DNA of 64,000 nt from a virus: the IMG/VR virus record IMGVR_UViG_3300026521_000003, positions 1 to 64,000 of that record, one strand, 5' to 3'. Under the pieces are notes generated by a model. It was not told the origin of the DNA. It was given only the letters and a program-made list of their open reading frames with translations, and made no database searches. This document shows positions 18,285 through 59,237 of the stretch, piece by piece (within the stretch, counting starts at the first letter, position 1; each line of letters starts with the position of its first letter). A program made the position numbers and the translations under genes.

Positions 18285-19112
18285 ATGAAAAATATCAAAC
18301 AGAATCAATCTCATAATGAATATGAGATTGAAATCCCTTTACCAATAACAAAGCCTAAAAATATATCTGTCTTTGACGATCAACAAAGAAATATAGCAGT
18401 TTTACGCATATATGGCGAAATCGATGAACCTTCAGAATATATTGAGGAGCTTTCAAAATTAAATAATTTATCACATCAATATGATGTTATTGAAATTACC
18501 CTTAATTCACCGGGTGGAAGTCTTAATACTGCTGTTGACTTAGCTTCAATAATCAATAACTTTCAACATGTTGTAACTATTGGTAAAGGTGAAGTAGCTT
18601 CTGCAGCATTTATGATTTGGACTATGGGAGATATTAAGGTTGTTACTGATTACTCCATGTATATGGCTCATAGAGAATCATATGGTATGTATGGAAAAAC
18701 TTCAGAACATAAAGCTGCTGCTAATGTTTTTGGTGAAGTATATGAAGAATTATTTGAAGATTGCTTTGGTAATATTTTAACTGAAGAAGAAAAACAAATT
18801 GCAGAAAGAAGCGAAGCATGGATTTCTTATAAAGATTTATTATCTCGCCCAGGTGTAATTTCGTATGATAGTTATATTGAACCAGCTAATCCATATTCTA
18901 TTATGGATACTTATATTTCAAATGATGGTAAAATGTTTATGTTTGATAATGAAATCGGAGCATTTAGGACTATCAAAATTAAATATGGTAATGAGATTAT
19001 TACAGATATGACCGATTACCTTTATGGAATTACGACAATTACAAAATTGCCAAAAATCAAAAATAAACCTTCTAAAAATGTAAAATTAAAGAAAAAGAAG
19101 GATAACAAATGA
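18285..19112 (+). CDS. ClpP-like serine protease (S14), divergent
   Basis: 275 residues. LNSPGGSLNTAVDLA is the oxyanion-loop block. GEVASAAFMIW carries the nucleophile Ser and YMAHRES the His of the triad. The expected Asp context (ERDxFMS) is ERSEAWIS, so the third residue is uncertain. A C-terminal extension ends in a Lys-rich tail (KNVKLKKKKDNK), unlike canonical ClpP of about 200 residues. Context is nucleotide metabolism, not head genes, so a prohead-protease role is not supported. A second, canonical ClpP lies at 61081-61716. Confidence 0.8.
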   Translation: MKNIKQNQSHNEYEIEIPLPITKPKNISVFDDQQRNIAVLRIYGEIDEPSEYIEELSKLNNLSHQYDVIEITLNSPGGSLNTAVDLASIINNFQHVVTIGKGEVASAAFMIWTMGDIKVVTDYSMYMAHRESYGMYGKTSEHKAAANVFGEVYEELFEDCFGNILTEEEKQIAERSEAWISYKDLLSRPGVISYDSYIEPANPYSIMDTYISNDGKMFMFDNEIGAFRTIKIKYGNEIITDMTDYLYGITTITKLPKIKNKPSKNVKLKKKKDNK

Positions 19113-25478: not shown

Positions 25479-26633
25479 ATGACACTATCTCACAAAAAAA
25501 TAAAATCTATTAAAAAAGTTAAATATTATGACAAAGTATATGATATAACTATGAAGTCCAACCCACATACATTTTTTGCTAATAATATTTTAGTACATAA
25601 CAGTTGCTATTTTAGAATAATGGAGGCAGAAAATTTGGAGGAAGCTCAAAAAATTGGTGCCGATGTTGTAAAAGCATGTGATGAAGGTAGTATTCCAATG
25701 TTGGTTAAAGATATTTTTAATGGTGATGATGTCATGAGATCCGATTTTGAAGCTATTGCCCGTTCAACATTATCATATGGTAAAAAGAAACAATATGCAT
25801 TTCTAAAAGGTTGGGAAGATGGTGAAGTACTTCCAAAGCCAAAATTAGGTATTACCGGTCTATCTATTAAAAGATCTGATTCACCCAAACAACTATCTAT
25901 GGAAATGAAACCGTTCTTTACTGAAATTATGAAAGGTTTAAAACATGAGCAAATCAAAGAAGCTATGGATAAAATTGAGTCGGATTATGATGATCTAAGC
26001 TTATATGATTTATCTGCAAAACGTTCAGCGAATAATTTAGGTAAATATTTAAAAGCATTCAATTATGAAATTGAATATAAATCTAGACCTTATAATATAG
26101 AAAAAATTGATGAATTTTTAAAAGAAGAGTACCCTGATATAAAAATTAAAATAAATGATAAAATATATTTTGATTTTATGAGAGAAGGTAGAGGTCGTTA
26201 TTCATTAGAAGATGGTGAATTAATAAAAGATGTTAATGGCGAAATTTATATTGAAGCAAAGGTAAAAATGGTTGTACCATTTCATATAAAGGCGTCTATT
26301 TTATATAACTATCTATTAGATGAATATAATTTATCATCCGAGTTTAATCAAATATTAAACGGTGAAAAAATTAAACTTTTTTATATTAAACCTACAAAAA
26401 TAAATATAAAATATACAAATAGTGATGGTGAAGTATTTGATATGATACAAGAATTTGATTGTATTGCATTCCCTTCTAGTTCTAAACACATACCATCATT
26501 TATTAATGATTTTACCCCAGATAAAAAGAGAATGCTAGAAACTTATTTCTTTGGTAAAATGGAAACTATTTTTGATGTTATTGGATTTAGCAAAGAAAAA
26601 CTTGAAAATATAGCTATGGATTCACTATTCTAA
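25479..26633 (+). CDS. Split-intein C-half fused to DNA polymerase (family B) C-terminal domain
   Basis: Residues 1-41 are an intein C-half: KVYDITMKSNPHTFFANNIL (block F type) ending VHN (block G). Ser42 starts the C-extein SCYFRIMEAENLEEA, which continues motif C of the fragment at 4449-5252. The rest (343 residues) matches the palm/thumb end of T4 gp43: KKKQYAFLKG, GLSIKRSD, VPFHIKASILYN, IAFPSS and a C-terminal MDSLF tail equal to the clamp-binding SLDFLFG end of gp43. Protein splicing in trans would join 149 plus 343 residues. No homing endonuclease is in the intein. Confidence 0.9.
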   Translation: MTLSHKKIKSIKKVKYYDKVYDITMKSNPHTFFANNILVHNSCYFRIMEAENLEEAQKIGADVVKACDEGSIPMLVKDIFNGDDVMRSDFEAIARSTLSYGKKKQYAFLKGWEDGEVLPKPKLGITGLSIKRSDSPKQLSMEMKPFFTEIMKGLKHEQIKEAMDKIESDYDDLSLYDLSAKRSANNLGKYLKAFNYEIEYKSRPYNIEKIDEFLKEEYPDIKIKINDKIYFDFMREGRGRYSLEDGELIKDVNGEIYIEAKVKMVVPFHIKASILYNYLLDEYNLSSEFNQILNGEKIKLFYIKPTKINIKYTNSDGEVFDMIQEFDCIAFPSSSKHIPSFINDFTPDKKRMLETYFFGKMETIFDVIGFSKEKLENIAMDSLF

Positions 26634-28117: not shown

Positions 28118-28195
28118 AGTTACTCCATTTTTAAGATATTTATTTAAGGAAATTAACATAAGTATTAATTTTGCAATATTTTTGCCATTTTAGTT

Positions 28196-28222
28196 TAAGT
28201 TTTTTGCACTATAACCGATATT
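28196..28222 (+). promoter_or_regulatory. Sigma-28 (FliA) type flagellar promoter
   Basis: TAAG, then 15 bases, then ACCGATAT. The FliA consensus is TAAA-N15-GCCGATAA, and Campylobacter flaA-type promoters use CGATAT/CGATTT. Spacing is exact. It lies about 100 bases before the flagellin start, in the place expected for class 3 flagellar genes. No TTG-TAAAAT phage-style box is seen between it and the gene. Confidence 0.75.
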
Positions 28223-28321
28223 CTAATTGTAAGAGAAATATATACTACATTATATCATATTTCTCTTTAAATTAAACTTAAATGGAAAAGGAATTTCCAC
28301 TTTACACATTGGAGGTGTATC

Positions 28322-29125
28322 ATGTTTAATTTAGGACAAGCTCAATCAATTTTAGGGATTAATAATTCAAATGATCAAATTTATAGATTAAATGAGCAGT
28401 TACAAACAGGTAAAAGAATTAACAGAGCGGCAGATGATGCTTCTGGTATGGCTATCGCAAACCAACTTAAATCACAAGCTAATGGTTTGGGTCAAGCCAT
28501 TAGAAATTTAAATGAGGCAATTTCATTAACAAACATAGCTGATGGAGCTTTAGAAGAATATACTAAAGTCCTTATGGAAATTAGAGATAAAGCGTCTCAA
28601 GCAATTTCTGATTCAAATTCAACCGAATCTAGAACAGCTTTACAAAATGATATTAATGAAATGATTAAATCTGCGGAAGCTATAGCAACTGATACGTCTT
28701 ATAATGGTATTAAATTATTAGATGGTACTTTTACAAATAAAGTATTCCAAACTGGGGCATATAGTGGACAAACAACATCTATATCAATTTCTAGTGTTAA
28801 AACAGCTGATTTGGGTATTGATGCGTTGACAGTTGATACTTCTACAAACGCTGCAACAGCATTGGATAATATCGATGCTGCTCTTAAATCTCTTGACGGT
28901 ATTAGAAGTGGTATCGGTTCTGTTACACAAGGTCTTGAATCTAAAGTTAGAAATATGCAAGTAACACAACAAAACGTCTTATCTGCAGAATCTAATATTA
29001 GAGATGTAGATGAAGCACAAGCAAAAGCTGAATTAGATAACTGGACTGTTAGAAATCAAGCTGCAATGTTCGCATTTAATATGGCAGCTCAACAACAACA
29101 AAGTATTCTAAGATTATTCCAATAG
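28322..29125 (+). CDS. Flagellin
   Basis: 267 residues, preceded by a strong RBS (GGAGGTG). N-terminal D0/D1: LQTGKRINRAADDASGMAIA and IADGALEEYTKVLMEIRDKA. C-terminal D1/D0: VRNMQVTQQNVLSAESNIRD and QQQQSILRLFQ. The central variable region is only about 60 residues (SISSVKTADLGIDALTV), so D2/D3 are absent. Both assembly ends are intact, so the protein could polymerise into the host filament and present a minimal surface. Flagellin is not a virion protein; its promoter is flagellar and FlaG-like coding follows. Likely taken from the host and kept for host modification. Confidence 0.95.
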   Translation: MFNLGQAQSILGINNSNDQIYRLNEQLQTGKRINRAADDASGMAIANQLKSQANGLGQAIRNLNEAISLTNIADGALEEYTKVLMEIRDKASQAISDSNSTESRTALQNDINEMIKSAEAIATDTSYNGIKLLDGTFTNKVFQTGAYSGQTTSISISSVKTADLGIDALTVDTSTNAATALDNIDAALKSLDGIRSGIGSVTQGLESKVRNMQVTQQNVLSAESNIRDVDEAQAKAELDNWTVRNQAAMFAFNMAAQQQQSILRLFQ

Positions 29126-29139
29126 AATATTAAGATTAT

Positions 29140-29164
29140 AGGAGGGTTATTAACCCTCCTTTTT
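29140..29164 (+). terminator. Intrinsic terminator after flagellin
   Basis: Perfect 9-bp stem AGGAGGGTT / AACCCTCCT with an ATT loop, followed by a short T run. Placed 15 bases after the flagellin stop and before the small gene and FlaG-like gene, so it may lower their expression relative to flagellin. Confidence 0.8.
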
Positions 29165-29182: not shown

Positions 29183-29467
29183 ATGGGTGGATATGCTAAT
29201 GACGTAAGTAGTTTTTTATCAATTTTTTATTTTCGCATGGAAGAGAAATTAAATGAATTAATAGAATTGAGTAAAGATAAATCATTTGATAGTACTAAGA
29301 AAAGTGTTGCAATTAAAGACAAATTAATCGAAGCATTAGATATGCTTACAATGAGTGCATCAGATGATAAAATAAAAGAATTTACTGATTATCTAAGTAC
29401 GAAAATTATTCTAGGTAAAGTAGAAGATTTAGAGGACGCAAAACGTGTATGTAAACTAATACGGTAA
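29183..29467 (+). CDS. Hypothetical protein in flagellin operon
   Basis: 94 residues with AAGGAG upstream. Helical and charged (MEEKLNELIELSKDKSFDST, LIEALDMLTMSASDDKIKEF). Its place between flagellin and a FlaG-like gene, and its size and helix pattern, allow a FliS-like flagellin chaperone, but no diagnostic FliS residues are present. Treat that as a context guess. Confidence 0.5.
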   Translation: MGGYANDVSSFLSIFYFRMEEKLNELIELSKDKSFDSTKKSVAIKDKLIEALDMLTMSASDDKIKEFTDYLSTKIILGKVEDLEDAKRVCKLIR

Positions 29468-29478
29468 AGGAGATAACT

Positions 29479-29799
29479 ATGATTCAGGAATTAACAAAAT
29501 CATTATCTAATTCAATACCTTCTATAAACTATACTGAACCACAATTAAATAATATACAAGAAAAATCTTTTAATGAAATACTTGATATTGAGAAAAGTAT
29601 AAATGAAGTTAATGAGTTATTAAAAGAAAAGAATCTAAAAGTTGAGTTAAATAGAGATATTAATATGATACAGATAAAAGAATTTGATGAAACTGGTGAA
29701 ATAGTATTAAAATCTACTCCACCAGAAGAATATATAAAAAGAGTTAAATACTTTAAAGAAAATATTCTTCCTAGTTTATTATTGGATGAAAAGGTTTAA
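29479..29799 (+). CDS. flaG: FlaG-like flagellar protein
   Basis: 106 residues with AAAGGAG as RBS. The C-terminal half follows the FlaG pattern: an INEVNELLKEKNLKVELNRD helix/strand, MIQIKEFDETGEIVLKSTPP (the V.v.D..TGEvIrqiPpE core), then a helix ending ILPSLLLDEKV similar to the IVGIIFDKKG end in Campylobacter. In Campylobacter, FlaG limits filament length. It shares the flagellin strand and direction, and overlaps the convergent NMN adenylyltransferase stop by 4 bases. Confidence 0.75.
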   Translation: MIQELTKSLSNSIPSINYTEPQLNNIQEKSFNEILDIEKSINEVNELLKEKNLKVELNRDINMIQIKEFDETGEIVLKSTPPEEYIKRVKYFKENILPSLLLDEKV

Positions 29800-30619: not shown

Positions 30620-30974
30620 CTTTATGCACCACGCTGAGAAAACCCAATGATCTTTAGCCATTGGGATGAATCAGCAATAATGTTGTTAATTATATCAAAT
30701 TCAATATTAATTTTGTATTAATTTTACATTAAAATAATGTAAAAAGTATATAGATATAAAGTTTAAGGAGATCGGATTGAAATTAAATCGCAACTACAAA
30801 TATAGATTACAACCAAATACCAAACAATCCGATTTCCTTAAACTTTATTTCTTTACTGCAGATCAATCAGAATCTTTGTATCGAGAATGTCAGTTAATTC
30901 TGAAATTCGATGATTGGAGTGCCTCTCGGCACTCCCTTAGAAGCCCAATCGTCTTTAGCGGTTGGGTAGTTCAC
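30620..30974 (+). mobile_element. Decayed IS200/IS605-family element (about 0.35 kb)
   Basis: Left imperfect palindrome CCCAATG-ATCTTTAGC-CATTGGG at 30643-30665 and right palindrome CCCAATC-GTCTTTAGC-GGTTGGG at 30944-30966, ending TAGTTCAC at 30967-30974. These are the paired subterminal hairpins with CTTTAG loops typical of IS605/IS608. Between them is an internally deleted tnpB; tnpA is absent. The left boundary is approximate. Flanks: NMN adenylyltransferase and a small membrane protein gene. Confidence 0.75.
30721..30744. promoter_or_regulatory. Palindromic TAAAAT-type promoter region inside the IS relic
   Basis: Perfect 10-bp inverted repeat TTTTACATTA / TAATGTAAAA with AAA loop. It gives a minus-strand TG-TAAAAT box at 30721-30726 and a near-match on plus. 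Could serve the NMN adenylyltransferase leftward or the tnpB remnant rightward. Confidence 0.35.
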
Positions 30975-31016
30975 TATACTAAATTATACATTAAAATTAT
31001 TTTAACTCACATCTAG
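30777..31016 (+). pseudogene. TnpB (IS605 OrfB) remnant with internal deletion
   Basis: Starts at TTG with AAGGAG upstream. Residues 1-17 (MKLNRNYKYRLQPNTKQ) are the standard TnpB N-terminus. The remaining 60 or so residues are translation of the element's right end, ending RSPIVFSGWVVHY, which is the read-through of the terminal hairpin. The RuvC domain and zinc finger (about 350 residues) are gone, so there is no nuclease. Confidence 0.8.
30916..30990 (+). ncRNA. Omega-RNA-like right-end RNA (putative)
   Basis: Two successive hairpins: GGAGTGCC-TCTC-GGCACTCC (30916-30935) and CCCAATC...GGTTGGG (30944-30966), then TAGTTCAC (to 30974). This is the TnpB guide-RNA scaffold layout; the next 16 bases (30975-30990) would be the guide. 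No intact TnpB is nearby, so activity would need a protein supplied elsewhere. Confidence 0.5.
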
Positions 31017-32703: not shown

Positions 32704-33593
32704 ATGAATTTTAAAAAATTTAGAACACAATTTTTTGATACTTTTAACTTTGAAATTGATGGAAGATTACATTATGTATATAGAATTACAGAAATCGATA
32801 CAAATATGTCATATATTGGATCTAGAACATGTAATAGGTCTATCCACGATGCATATACTACATGCACCAATGATTTAAAATCTTATGGTACATCATCATA
32901 TAGAAAAGAATTTATAAAAGCAAACTTAGATAAATTTAAATTCAAGATATTACGAATTTTTGATAATTCGGTTGACAAAATATTATTTGAATCATTTATA
33001 CATCAGAAATTTGACGTTAAACATAATAATAAATTTTGGAATAAATCAAATCACACACCTAATGGTTGTGATACTACTGGAAGACAATTTACTCATAGTG
33101 AAGACCATATTAAAAAGAGAACTGAATCGAGATCAAAAACGATGTTGGAAGTTGGTGAAGATGGATTAAATAGGTATCAGAGAGCAAGTATAAAAGCAAA
33201 TAAAACAAAATTAAAGAAAGATAAGAATGGGTTAAGTCAATATCAGAAATTAGCTAAGAAAGCTTGGACGACAAAAAAGAAAAAGGATTTAAATTTACTT
33301 CAAAAAATAATCCACGTTTAAATACAATAATAATTATGAATGATAATGATGAAATTATTGAGATTATTGAAAGCTCATTTACTACTTTCTGCAAAGAACA
33401 TAAATACCCTATGAATGCGTTTAGGAAATCATATATTGCTAAAGGCAAAAAAATATATATTGATTTAGATAATGGTAATTTAAAGAAAATGAAAGATACT
33501 TTTGAGTATAATACATTTAAAGGGTGGTACGCTATAAAATATATAGATCTTTCCGATGAATTAATTAAAAAAGTAAAGGAGTTTAAAAGGTGA
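32704..33593 (+). CDS. GIY-YIG homing endonuclease, split by a -1 frameshift
   Basis: Frame 1 (32704-33321) has the GIY-YIG core: LHYVYRITEIDTNMSYIGSR, with later NKFWNKSNHTPNGCDTTGRQ typical of phage Seg-like nucleases. Frame 2 (to 33593) encodes the C-terminal DNA-binding part: TTFCKEHKYPMNAFRKSYIA and FKGWYAIKY. The frames meet at the heptamer A-AAA-AAG (33273-33279), in phase for -1 slippage, with a second G-AAA-AAG at 33279-33285. A -1 shift gives a product of about 297 residues. Either programmed frameshifting, a homopolymer indel, or a pseudogene. Confidence 0.75.
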
Positions 33594-33964
33594 AATTTTT
33601 AGTAGTAGATGATTCATCAACAATGAGACGAATTATAAAGAATACAATTATAAGATTGGGGTATAAAAAAGAAAATTTATTTGAGGCAGAAGATGGCGAA
33701 GTAGCATTAAATTTATTTAGAGAAAAAGGGAATGATTTTTTTGGGATAATTTTAACAGATATAAACATGCCGAATAAAAATGGATATGATTTAATAAAAG
33801 AAGTAAGAAAATTGGATGAGAATATACCAATCGTAACTATCTCAACAGAGGGTGGAAAATCTGAAGTTTTGAAAGCTTTAAAACTTGGTTCGACAAATTA
33901 CATCGTTAAACCGTTTACACCACAAGTACTTAAAGAAAAATTAAAAGATATACTTGGAGAATAA
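33590..33964 (+). CDS. cheY: CheY-type response regulator
   Basis: 124 residues, a single receiver domain. Acidic pair D7-D8 (VVDDSSTMRRII), phosphoacceptor D57 (ILTDINMP), the Ser/Thr switch in ISTEGGKSEVL, and K107 in NYIVKPFTPQVLKEKL. The STMRRIIKNT and KPFTPQVLKEKL blocks match Helicobacter/Campylobacter CheY almost letter for letter. CheY-P binds the flagellar switch FliM to set rotation. Starts at GTG with AAAGGAG upstream and overlaps the endonuclease stop (GTGA). No kinase, CheB or CheR is encoded nearby. Confidence 0.92.
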   Translation: MKFLVVDDSSTMRRIIKNTIIRLGYKKENLFEAEDGEVALNLFREKGNDFFGIILTDINMPNKNGYDLIKEVRKLDENIPIVTISTEGGKSEVLKALKLGSTNYIVKPFTPQVLKEKLKDILGE

Positions 33965-57100: not shown

Positions 57101-57413
57101 ATTCTAAGAAACCTGAACCAGTTGTAATTTGTTTTCTTGCTGTTGAAGCAGAATCAATAGCATTTCTTCCTGGTAAATATATAGCATTTGCATTTGTTAA
57201 TTCCCAATCTGCTCCTTCTCCAGTACCATTCCAAATTTTCATTAAACTTGTTGTTGTATCGAACCATCTATACCCTACTGTTGGTGCTGCTGGTGCATCT
57301 GGACCAACAGTATATTGTAAAGACGTTTCAATTTGTTGCTTGATTGCAACGTCTTTCTCATCAACTTTACTCATAATTTCATTGTGTAGTTGATTTAATC
57401 GTATCAAAGACAT
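54129..57413 (-). CDS. Tail/baseplate structural protein (1094 residues)
   Basis: Starts IRLNQLHNEIMSKVDEKD, then APAAPTVGYRWFDTTTS (the P..G..WfDT module). A central block (LVFLEVWREDITET, FPYGNVQY, VDGDKLVQIRYRVRVV) is shared with the 2376-residue protein, so the two are paralogues. Late promoter TATAAATA at 57446-57453, AAGGAG as RBS. Virion role inferred from paralogy, length and late box. Confidence 0.75.
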   Translation of the reverse strand: MSLIRLNQLHNEIMSKVDEKDVAIKQQIETSLQYTVGPDAPAAPTVGYRWFDTTTSLMKIWNGTGEGADWELTNANAIYLPGRNAIDSASTARKQITTGSGFLEFGGKINSPKTINKSMLANDGIPRIAGIVGEGEDAIKKFWFENFFLLNANGYTEDTLDPSTGELTEVLVDGINLTIQGTLPNSEVITDSKLMAINLPDAPNTVDELVRDELVFLEVWREDITETGFVFPYGNVQYTGENADGIATEYFTGEVGYCESFDGDSITLTEIDQNGNETTTEKPKGRGWQWTNLKAAYKNIIAANYKHNIFVDGDKLVQIRYRVRVVSFAKNPATPLTDTTVLGYTKDNDATSVIKAQGKLGTINNSDDNYKILAPFNEDNPHSLNGTYSTEYTTDLSQDGYVFALPLAAVSRRNTGVFDTIFNPNGSARFRDGLRLVADYDESDDIIGFALMDIANATLASSTTGATWEDKYEIMMNWLFDRTTILASYDNAAGFVIGGDMNSGISGRYDGLYYDEVNEVDIKDLRIDINKQLDLAYILEQEFNKFILGDQRGWQQENHLYQWEGNIAQDALVQQADGSYLMDNGEHVKGYGYVTELPIYYKLADGSEITGMDAKIATNITSGYTSSLFVRPGVEPTDTNPRPFYSNTFTRRVQVKLMPVLDTNGEEQTDIDGNLIQKIVISDGAIYIDEATEFILVSPKDRAARKSQLFADIIGDPKGNSFKFSTSMHTGNDLDADTILENGNIAFTGQNYYVYRGATKNLNDIQGTQTDNAGYFSIDETDTNTWIDITDKGGYSEGWKMYGNLGTAMVVNEEGDSMLPRDVISGIWDSNQNKQVYTNTKFFKLSKPVESIKKVIVTTDKKAGKKAFLTQITASNNGKSIIDQVDETPATFGFENSVYLTNNNTIAINWETFTDDAIVEIYYEVSSNPTSITVSTKVDMLGDIWLGNALKQDLGCKAISNLMDKVSIHDAPLGSKGAAKRIPLSTYLVNKGEDGAVLNDEWSILTHAEVDLAGNGPAIKILPYITSVRGEMFLKLLYKELDMDIDINGVAYKLDNNQFVVVDGETTDDNGGTGNMVKVGHRKIKLPYYFGDAV

Positions 57414-57445
57414 ATTATTCTCCTTTTCTTGTATAATTTCACTTT

Positions 57446-57453
57446 TATTTATA
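57446..57453 (-). promoter_or_regulatory. T4-type late promoter box TATAAATA
   Basis: Exact match, 33 bases before the start at 57413. Confidence 0.6.
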
Positions 57454-57502
57454 TCTAATATTCTAAAATTGACTTTTAATAAATACAGATTATAAAATTA
57501 TT

Positions 57503-57508
57503 ATTTTA
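57503..57508 (-). promoter_or_regulatory. Sigma-70-like -10 (TG-TAAAAT)
   Basis: Minus strand AAAAATG-TAAAAT just after the homing endonuclease stop, about 90 bases before the start at 57413; a second, earlier-class promoter for the structural gene. Confidence 0.35.
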
Positions 57509-57515
57509 CATTTTT

Positions 57516-59237
57516 TTAATATTTTTTTAAAATACGTCTTCCACTATCCGTATAAATTAAAAACCCATTCATTATCATATTTTCTTTAATTGTTAAATTT
57601 TCATCATACAAATCTATATATCCCATTATATTAGTATGATCTAAAGTATTATGGGAAATAAATATTTTTTCTTTATTATAATATAATGATTCTGATATTG
57701 ATCCTTCAAAACTAAAGTCAATCTTAAAAAATAAATCCAAATATAAATTAAATCTTCGGTCAATTGATATTATTATAGGCTTATCGGTCGATATTAAAAT
57801 ATCTATAAATGGATTAGTGTTAAAATTTATTTCTGGACATATTATAAAATGTTTAATTTCTATATTATTTTTATGATTAGAAATACCCATTACAGCTAAG
57901 AGTTCACCATTAAAAAATGCACCATACATTTTTATAAATGATAGGTTGATATTATACATATGTTTATTTAAAAAATCAAAACCTATGGAAGTATCAATTA
58001 TTTTGACTTCAAGCTCATTAATATCTAGGGTTTTTATTTTATATTTTAATTTATGGAGTATAATCTGTTTACAATAATCTTCATGATATTCCCATTCATA
58101 TTCATAAAATTGTATCAATGTTATATCTAAATTATCAGCGATTAGACTACTATCAATATAAGATGTATCCCTCGAAGTTGATGGTGACAAAATCTCTATA
58201 AATATATTTGATTTTAAGATTTCTATTTTATCCATATCTACTATCTTAAAGATATACCCTATTGAACTTAAAAAATCTTGGATTTTATTTAAAATATGTT
58301 TTCTATTATTTAATCTAGGATTACATTGAAAACAAACGGGTAAATTATTACTATCAATTAGACTTGTAATTATATTATTACATCTCTTACATTTAAATTT
58401 ATATTTATATTTGTTATCATATACCTGCAAATCATCAATACAAGTAACAAAAATATTATCTTTAAATTTTTCAAAAATTTTATTATTAAGGGTACTATCA
58501 ATTTTTGATAAGGATATAGGATTTTTTTGAGCAGAATAACTATCATATTTTGAAATAATTGTATTTTTACGTTTTTCTAAAATAGATTTATTCTTTATAG
58601 GAAATATAGTTCCGAATTTTTTTAAGTTTGTATTATATGCTTTTTTTCTAATATAATCTAATGATAAAGGGTGTTTAACACCATATTTAATCAAATTGGT
58701 AGTTATCGTTTTATTTCTAATTTCTTGAGATTGTTGTGCATATTCCACCCCATATTTCTCAATCATTGTCTTTTTTATTTTTTCTTTTGTACTATCTAAT
58801 TTTGCAATAGAATCAACACCATATTTTTCTTTAACCGTCTTTTTTATTTTTTCTTTTGTACTATCTAATTTTGCAATAGAATCAACACCATATTTTTCTT
58901 TAACCGTCTTTTTTAATTTCTTTTTTTGTTTTTCATTTTGTAAAGGGTGTTCTGTTCCATAATTTTTAAGAAATGTTATTTTTTGATTATGTTCTTTTGA
59001 ACATCCTAAATTAAATATATTAGTACGTTCATTAAATGAAGCATAATTTGAACAATTTTTAAATTGACATTTTGGAGGAGTATCTAGATCCCTTATCAAT
59101 AAATACCATTGGGCTTTTATAGATAAAGTTGGGTATCTCTCATTAAGATACCCAATAAGTTCTTTTGAAAAGTTTTTAAAATAAATATTTTTTTTAGTTT
59201 TATAATATTCAATTTCTTCTTTTAATTTAGTTTCCAT
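57516..59237 (-). CDS. Putative homing endonuclease with KYG repeats
   Basis: 573 residues. N-terminus: IKAQWYLLIRDLDTPPKC with a C...C knuckle. Then come five or so KEKYGVDS/KYGVEHP-type repeats, the DNA-binding array found in large phage homing endonucleases. A zinc knuckle pair follows (CKRCNN, CFQCNP). A nuclease-like core follows (SNIFIEILSPSTSRDTSYID). The C-terminal domain is NGELLAVMGIS...GFLIYTDSGRRILKKY. Similar to VSR/EDxHD-type enzymes seen beside fractured, split-intein genes. No RBS; it begins 6 bases after the intein-topoisomerase gene. Contains a 69-base tandem repeat. Confidence 0.7.
   Translation of the reverse strand: METKLKEEIEYYKTKKNIYFKNFSKELIGYLNERYPTLSIKAQWYLLIRDLDTPPKCQFKNCSNYASFNERTNIFNLGCSKEHNQKITFLKNYGTEHPLQNEKQKKKLKKTVKEKYGVDSIAKLDSTKEKIKKTVKEKYGVDSIAKLDSTKEKIKKTMIEKYGVEYAQQSQEIRNKTITTNLIKYGVKHPLSLDYIRKKAYNTNLKKFGTIFPIKNKSILEKRKNTIISKYDSYSAQKNPISLSKIDSTLNNKIFEKFKDNIFVTCIDDLQVYDNKYKYKFKCKRCNNIITSLIDSNNLPVCFQCNPRLNNRKHILNKIQDFLSSIGYIFKIVDMDKIEILKSNIFIEILSPSTSRDTSYIDSSLIADNLDITLIQFYEYEWEYHEDYCKQIILHKLKYKIKTLDINELEVKIIDTSIGFDFLNKHMYNINLSFIKMYGAFFNGELLAVMGISNHKNNIEIKHFIICPEINFNTNPFIDILISTDKPIIISIDRRFNLYLDLFFKIDFSFEGSISESLYYNKEKIFISHNTLDHTNIMGYIDLYDENLTIKENMIMNGFLIYTDSGRRILKKY
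58756..58915 (-). repeat. 69-bp tandem repeat in the endonuclease gene
   Basis: The 23-residue unit KKTVKEKYGVDSIAKLDS plus TKEKI occurs twice with identical bases and a partial third, diverged copy (KKTMIEKYGVEYAQQ). Boundaries approximate. Confidence 0.8.

Follow-up and report, generated by a model that had tools for sequence, protein, structure and literature searches.

The window is the whole stretch of DNA analyzed here, 64,000 nucleotides corresponding to bases 1 to 64000 of a 289,880-base (290 kb) phage record. It contains a flagellin gene on the plus strand at positions 28322 to 29125, which is the sole flagellin in the record. The gene is preceded by a putative sigma-28-type promoter and a leader with predicted hairpins. 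It is followed by genes for a FliS-like protein and a FlaG-family protein, and a cheY gene is located 4.5 kb away. The neighboring genes are dnaJ on one side and nucleotide-metabolism genes on the other. Another virus contig, L002 (172 kb), shares this block and its flanks, at 90% DNA identity over 12.3 kb spanning the flagellin locus. Because the flagellin occupies the same place in this second contig, a mis-join at the locus is excluded. A preliminary description of this DNA had named such a mis-join as grounds for rejecting its reading, and an assembly chimera was ruled out by the shared synteny.

The record encodes the T4-type major head protein gp23 (E value, 4.8e-80), a type II topoisomerase, and a ribonucleotide reductase. 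It contained PHROGs matches to a tail sheath, sheath stabilizer, head-tail adaptor, and clamp loader, and the genome is T4-like, as first described. The record had no detectable tRNA genes. Neither it nor eight further phage records with a flagellin gave a match to phage integrase (PF00589). It also encodes ClpS adaptor and Clp-protease family proteins at G000 159506 to 159814 and window positions 18285 to 19112 (Pfam; ORFs assigned by eye). An ORF at G000 217910 to 218800 probably matches the anti-Pycsar nuclease Apyc1 (PF23023 hit in the scanned set; ORF picked by eye). Window positions 25479 to 26633 encode the C-terminal part of a DNA polymerase. An intein splicing end stands at the start of this part, and the polymerase appears to be split, with remnants of the intein. 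The start of a short ORF at window positions 30777 to 31016 resembles a longer ORF at G000 265791 to 266981, and the short ORF is possibly a transposon remnant (both by eye).

The flagellin contained 267 residues. It matched Pfam Flagellin_N (PF00669) over residues 11 to 138 (1.4e-35; 122.8 bits, cutoff 26.6) and Flagellin_C (PF00700) over residues 181 to 266 (3.3e-15; 56.6 bits, cutoff 23), which places it among the bacterial flagellins. Pfam detected no outer domain between the N- and C-terminal D0/D1 regions, and the protein is a minimal flagellin without D2/D3, as originally proposed. The ends had also been called intact. This holds for the C terminus, which keeps a canonical D0 ending in LRLFQ; at the N terminus, the Pfam model was left unmatched over its first ~11 positions. 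The match begins at profile position 12, compared to positions 1 to 3 in eight other phage flagellins scanned. The atypical D0 tip has no effect on the family assignment. It may affect assembly behavior, and it could hinder or cap polymerization.

The flagellin is of the Campylobacterota type. Its four best NCBIfam models were of the FlaA/FlaB type, which are Helicobacter and Campylobacter models. The top PDB chains included C. jejuni FlaA (6X80). Compared to its counterpart in L002, the gene had a dS of 0.85 and a dN/dS of 0.062, and it is under strong purifying selection. The dS was higher than that of most neighbors outside the module (0.14 to 0.69), a possible sign that the flagellin segment diverged earlier or was exchanged. 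In the reading favored below, the protein would polymerize into filaments.

A sigma-28-type promoter, TTAAGTTT-N11-ACCGATAT (TTAA-N15-ACCGATAT), is located on the plus strand at 28195 to 28221 and is identical in L002. It places TTAAGTTTTTTGCACTATAACCGATAT 100 nt 5' of the flagellin ATG. The preliminary description gave the promoter as TAAG-N15 with exact FliA spacing. TAAG (28196 to 28199) gives N14, and it is TTAA (28195 to 28198) that stands N15 from ACCGATAT (28214 to 28221). The CGATAT box, described there as the Campylobacterota box, matches the -10 box of C. jejuni sigma-28, CGATwt (PMC4626219), which is also given as CGATTT (PMC3656092). The site thus combines a CGATwt -10 box with a TAAA-like -35 element at the right spacing, and it is weak by score alone. 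A call by consensus score was rejected as not significant, since 6 of 320 ORF upstream regions in this phage scored as well. The promoter call stands because the CGATAT box is present, CCGAT was confined to 2 of the 137 upstream regions, a 63-nt block ending just past the -10 box (28160 to 28222) is invariant in L002, and the boxes enriched in this phage, TGTAAAAT/TGTATAAT (early type) and TATAAATA (late type), are absent from the flagellin leader. This absence had been noted from the outset. Nearby genes differ from those of L002 by 13 to 65% at synonymous sites, against no change in the 63-nt block. The divergent dnaJ promoter may account for some of the constraint on this block.

Clear sigma-28 sites precede other phage flagellins, one example being TAAACTTTTTTCTAAAAGTGCCGATAT in the T4-like contig L031. 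This contig encodes a minimal flagellin (L031:7230 to 8045) behind a near-perfect sigma-28 promoter, TAAA-N15-GCCGATAT, and it carries sheath and gp23 genes. Infection by T4-like phages usually brings host transcription to a halt, and this would limit FliA-driven expression of the flagellin. A promoter for a host sigma factor would work mainly early in infection, or if the phage leaves host transcription running.

The leader is predicted to form three hairpins on the plus strand. The first, AAGAGAAATAT...ATATTTCTCTT (28231 to 28267), keeps its stem in L002 with a changed loop, and it is overlapped by a TATAAT on the opposite strand, on the dnaJ side. The second, SL1 (TGGAAA-AGGAA-TTTCCA; 28283 to 28299), has GGA in the loop and is a candidate CsrA site. 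It also forms in L002, and in contig L025 it forms with an entirely different stem. The third, SL2 (TACAC-ATTGGAG-GTGTA; 28303 to 28319), is a second candidate CsrA site. Its loop holds the Shine-Dalgarno GGAGG; the stem is identical in L002 and L025, and the loop varies. The loop in this phage is UUGGA, not the strict ANGGA. The leader thus has two GGA hairpins, one of them covering the Shine-Dalgarno sequence.

By one fixed rule, the double GGA-loop hairpin was present in 10 of 16 phage flagellin leaders (the window and 15 others). These ten are partly related and represent about three independent groups. The same rule found it at 6 of 320 other ORFs in this phage and at 11 of 257 in the other phage loci, one of which is a phage fliD. 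The leader of C. jejuni flaA has two ANGGA hairpins, the second over the ribosome-binding site, and its binding by CsrA has been shown (PMC4894983). The phage leader resembles this CsrA-controlled leader by analogy, and its CsrA sites are candidates. No csrA gene was found on the phage. The promoter and leader together argue well for the proposed expression of the flagellin on the host flagellar program.

A hairpin follows the flagellin stop codon at 29140 to 29160 on the plus strand (AGGAGGGTTATTAACCCTCCT, then TTTTT). It may be a terminator or an attenuator with partial read-through, and transcription may continue past it. L002 has a hairpin of different sequence at this position without the T run.

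The next gene, at 29183 to 29467 on the plus strand, encodes 94 aa. AlphaFold2 predicted a four-helix bundle (pLDDT, 85). The six best Foldseek matches to this model among 350,542 PDB chains were all FliS, with probabilities of 0.99 to 1.00 and TM scores of 0.62 to 0.78, but E values of 0.1 to 0.5. The ORF had no sequence-family match in Pfam or NCBIfam, and the FliS profile (PF02561) had no match anywhere in this record. On the strength of the model, we describe the protein as a putative FliS-like flagellin chaperone and do not call it FliS. The profile search for FliS in other records gave two weak matches, which coincided with FliD genes and were rejected. The nearest relative of the flagellin (51% by alignment; also in the tree) is encoded by L025, an unrelated myovirus with a tail sheath. 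It has a 119-aa ORF beside its flagellin on the opposite strand. The model of this protein has the FliS helix order, and its structure matches were FliS plus designed four-helix bundles.

The FlaG-family gene is located at 29479 to 29799 on the plus strand and encodes 106 aa. It matched PF03646 at 2.2e-5 with 25.0 bits, above the cutoff of 23.8; a six-frame search for FlaG in this record gave only 21.7 bits. The homologue in L002 was a stronger match (2.9e-7; 31.0 bits), and among the viral contigs, FlaG relatives were present only in L002. The dN/dS values of the FliS-like, FlaG, and CheY genes were 0.25 to 0.37, indicating faster evolution than that of the flagellin.

The cheY gene is located at 33590 to 33964 on the plus strand and has a GTG start (Pfam, 2.5e-24). 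It encodes the conserved residues of a CheY receiver (DD, the phosphoacceptor D, T, and K) and keeps phosphoacceptor D57 and the KPFTPQVLKEKL face. Its best PDB match was 3GWG, the CheY homologue of H. pylori, at 127.6 bits versus 92.8 for the next group. The other phage CheY was likewise closest to 3GWG (154 versus 107 bits). The gene is not preceded by a sigma-28 site. In L002, it lies behind a late-type box, ATATAAATAG, unlike the flagellin. A search for CheY among the remaining flagellin phages found none. The window also contains a GIY-YIG endonuclease-like ORF (by eye) and an 85-aa ORF before cheY (32704 to 33593), both absent in L002.

Outside the window, the record encodes a 114-aa FliM-N-like protein at G000 224104 to 224448 (L011:4104 to 4448). 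It starts with MADILSQDEIDRLL, a close copy of the N-terminal CheY-binding peptide of FliM. A conserved EIDALL motif at the N terminus is what FliM and FliY use to bind CheY-P (PMC9126983). SQxEIDxL occurs in no other ORF of the record, and the one other EIDxLL lies in the interior of a 2376-aa protein. The rest of the 114-aa protein had no matches among family profiles or viral contigs. From its N terminus, this protein may sequester CheY-P. The promoter and the flagellin from the preliminary description held; it had overlooked most of the system, namely the leader hairpins, the FliS-like, FlaG, and CheY genes, and the FliM-like peptide.

The flagellin alignment comprised 28 viral loci. Flagellins were retrieved from about fifteen other viral contigs, in at least four supported clades of a tree that contains phage and a few plasmid flagellins only. 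GenBank "phage" flagellins (MT83..., OR84..., OR85...) were left out as unannotated scaffolds or fragments that may be bacterial. The L048 flagellin was left out because it overlaps a longer ORF on the opposite strand. Some flagellin contigs also encode gp23 (L029, L031, and L045). Four large phage contigs encode the filament cap protein FliD together with flagellin, at L030:3222 to 4595, L033:8805 to 10130, 90059 to 90793 of the L027 record, and 57260 to 58003 of the L051 record. The fliD leader in L030 also has two GGA-loop hairpins. Flagellins are almost absent from isolate phage records, where the only credible one is in Bacillus phage EZ-2018a. It is conceivable, though we would put it somewhat short of probable, that flagellar takeover kits are present in large virulent phages from several lineages unrelated to one another. 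A kit would consist of a minimal flagellin, a host-type sigma-28 promoter and/or CsrA leader, and a FliS-like protein, FlaG, or FliD. The T4-like phage here would add CheY and a FliM-N mimic, thereby rebuilding the filament and resetting motor switching.

The host was assigned from protein affinity alone, and it is likely a member of the Campylobacterota because of the FlaA/FlaB models, the FlaA structure match, and the similarity of CheY to that of H. pylori. A flagellin scan of the genome contigs gave only a weak Thermodesulfovibrionales match. We read the phage as a virulent-type, T4-like phage with a Campylobacterota host, within an explanation that, taken as a whole, we consider slightly better than an even bet.

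We lean toward the view that the locus is a phage flagellar takeover module. Under host control, it would build or alter the filament of the host, and its CheY would act on the motor. Transcription of the phage flagellin would fall to the FliA form of the host RNA polymerase, in infected cells whose flagellar synthesis is already under way. CsrA/FliW would gate its translation together with that of the host flagellin. The FliS-like protein would chaperone it for export, and it would copolymerize with or overgrow the host filament. Along the resulting stretch, the filament would be without D2/D3, the domains that are exposed at the surface and usually glycosylated. The length of the filament would be tuned by FlaG, and motor switching would be altered by CheY, perhaps together with the FliM-N-like protein. 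Replacement or coating of the host filament, as the preliminary description had suggested, is plausible from the sequence, and it gains weight because FliS-like and FlaG genes lie just downstream. Its suggestion that the purpose is escape from flagellotropic phages or immune escape is speculation. Flagellin serves as a phage receptor in C. jejuni, and flagellin makeup affects infection (PMC5126078). Two benefits are likely but unproven. The flagellar docking site would be lost to competing phages and to the phage's own progeny, and the infected cell would be kept swimming on the phage's terms.

The main rival is a regulatory decoy, which we consider unlikely. It would drain the CsrA-FliW-flagellin circuit and alter or halt host flagellar synthesis, with little phage flagellin entering filaments. 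Either the phage flagellin would bind FliW and the freed CsrA would repress host flagellin, or the leader RNA would soak up CsrA. The two GGA hairpins are conserved and the D0 N terminus is atypical, both consistent with a decoy. CsrA is titrated by the flaA leader itself in C. jejuni and is also bound there by FliW (PMC4894983). A pure RNA decoy, however, would need neither a chaperone-like protein nor FlaG, and it does not fit the strong protein-level purifying selection along the flagellin.

A protein decoy acting through FliW keeps some probability. Another rival is a flagellin that stays outside the filament. It would leave through the flagellar apparatus without being built in, like C. 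jejuni FlaC, or it would cap or poison the filament and so end its growth. This is less probable still. Campylobacterales FlaC is secreted and uninvolved in motility (PMC4863622), and a D0/D1-only protein with an unusual N-terminal tip could resemble it. However, many solved flagellins are also of D0/D1 size (270- to 280-aa chains), and the best models here are the filament flagellins FlaA and FlaB. The canonical C-terminal D0 is kept, and filament flagellins typically have a partner of the FliS-like kind. A role as a virion part, with a flagellin-fold protein in the tail or fibers (for example, docking on flagella), is very improbable. It would suit the flagellin of L029, which sits among fiber-like genes, and the use of flagella as a receptor by Campylobacter phages (PMC5126078). 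The gene here is flanked by dnaJ and nucleotide-metabolism genes, its leader lacks the late-type TATAAATA box, and a sigma-28/CsrA-type leader with FliS-like and FlaG neighbors makes no sense for a virion protein. An assembly artifact or a recent functionless host passenger would fit the bacterial gene family and the flagellin GC content (33%, versus 28% for the window), but it is practically dismissed by the independent contig with the same place and flanks, the dN/dS of 0.062, and the invariant promoter block.

The favored takeover module shares features with several known systems. The leader resembles that of C. jejuni flaA (PMC4894983) in its CGATwt sigma-28 -10 box and two GGA-loop hairpins, the second over the ribosome-binding site. 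It differs in that the 5' UTR is about 90 nt rather than 45, the gene is phage borne, the SL2 loop departs from ANGGA, D2/D3 are absent, and the CsrA sites are candidates. Like C. jejuni FlaC (PMC4863622), the protein is flagellin-like, not of the major-filament kind, and has a possible nonfilament role. Unlike FlaC, it scores best with FlaA/FlaB models and has a canonical C terminus and a flaA-type leader. Bacillus phage EZ-2018a (CP027117) also carries a flagellin, which is hag-like. Its record is a 118-kb Jenstvirus, and its 301-aa Bacillus-type flagellin belongs to a different clade. Among solved structures, the CheY from H. pylori (3GWG) stands nearest to the two phage CheY proteins. They keep the phosphoacceptor and C-terminal face; they differ in being phage borne and diverged outside the active site and this face.

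Another parallel is FRphi of Enterobacter, a temperate phage in which replacement of host flagellin by phage flagellin has been shown, and its flagellins have been called the first known prophage-encoded ones (PMC13418256). Both systems have a phage-borne flagellin that enters the host filament, shown in FRphi (TldR and FliCP) and expected here, and both control flagellin at the level of the host circuit. FRphi phages are temperate, siphovirus-like prophages, whereas this phage is T4-like. The FRphi type is temperate with TldR beside fliC; no integrase was found in this record, and no such gene is adjacent to the flagellin. The FRphi flagellin has enlarged outer domains, and the one here is minimal. 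In FRphi, the RNA-guided repressor TldR silences host fliC; here, the leader copies host sigma-28/CsrA signals. This phage also adds a FliS-like protein, FlaG, and CheY.

Subscription papers and preprints aside, the literature searched contained no description of a flagellin in a virulent T4-like phage. Temperate flagellin-remodeling phages are known, and what appears to be new is a T4-like, virulent-type phage with host-type sigma-28/CsrA signals. The double-hairpin leader offers a simple signature by which such genes could be found in sequence data, and the genes recur in at least four phage flagellin clades. Flagellum remodeling has been shown for temperate prophages, to the benefit of the lysogen. 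If the takeover reading is true, a virulent phage that remodels the flagellum within a short infection through host sigma-28 and CsrA would follow a different strategy, one that raises questions on superinfection exclusion, the swimming of infected cells, and phage dispersal.
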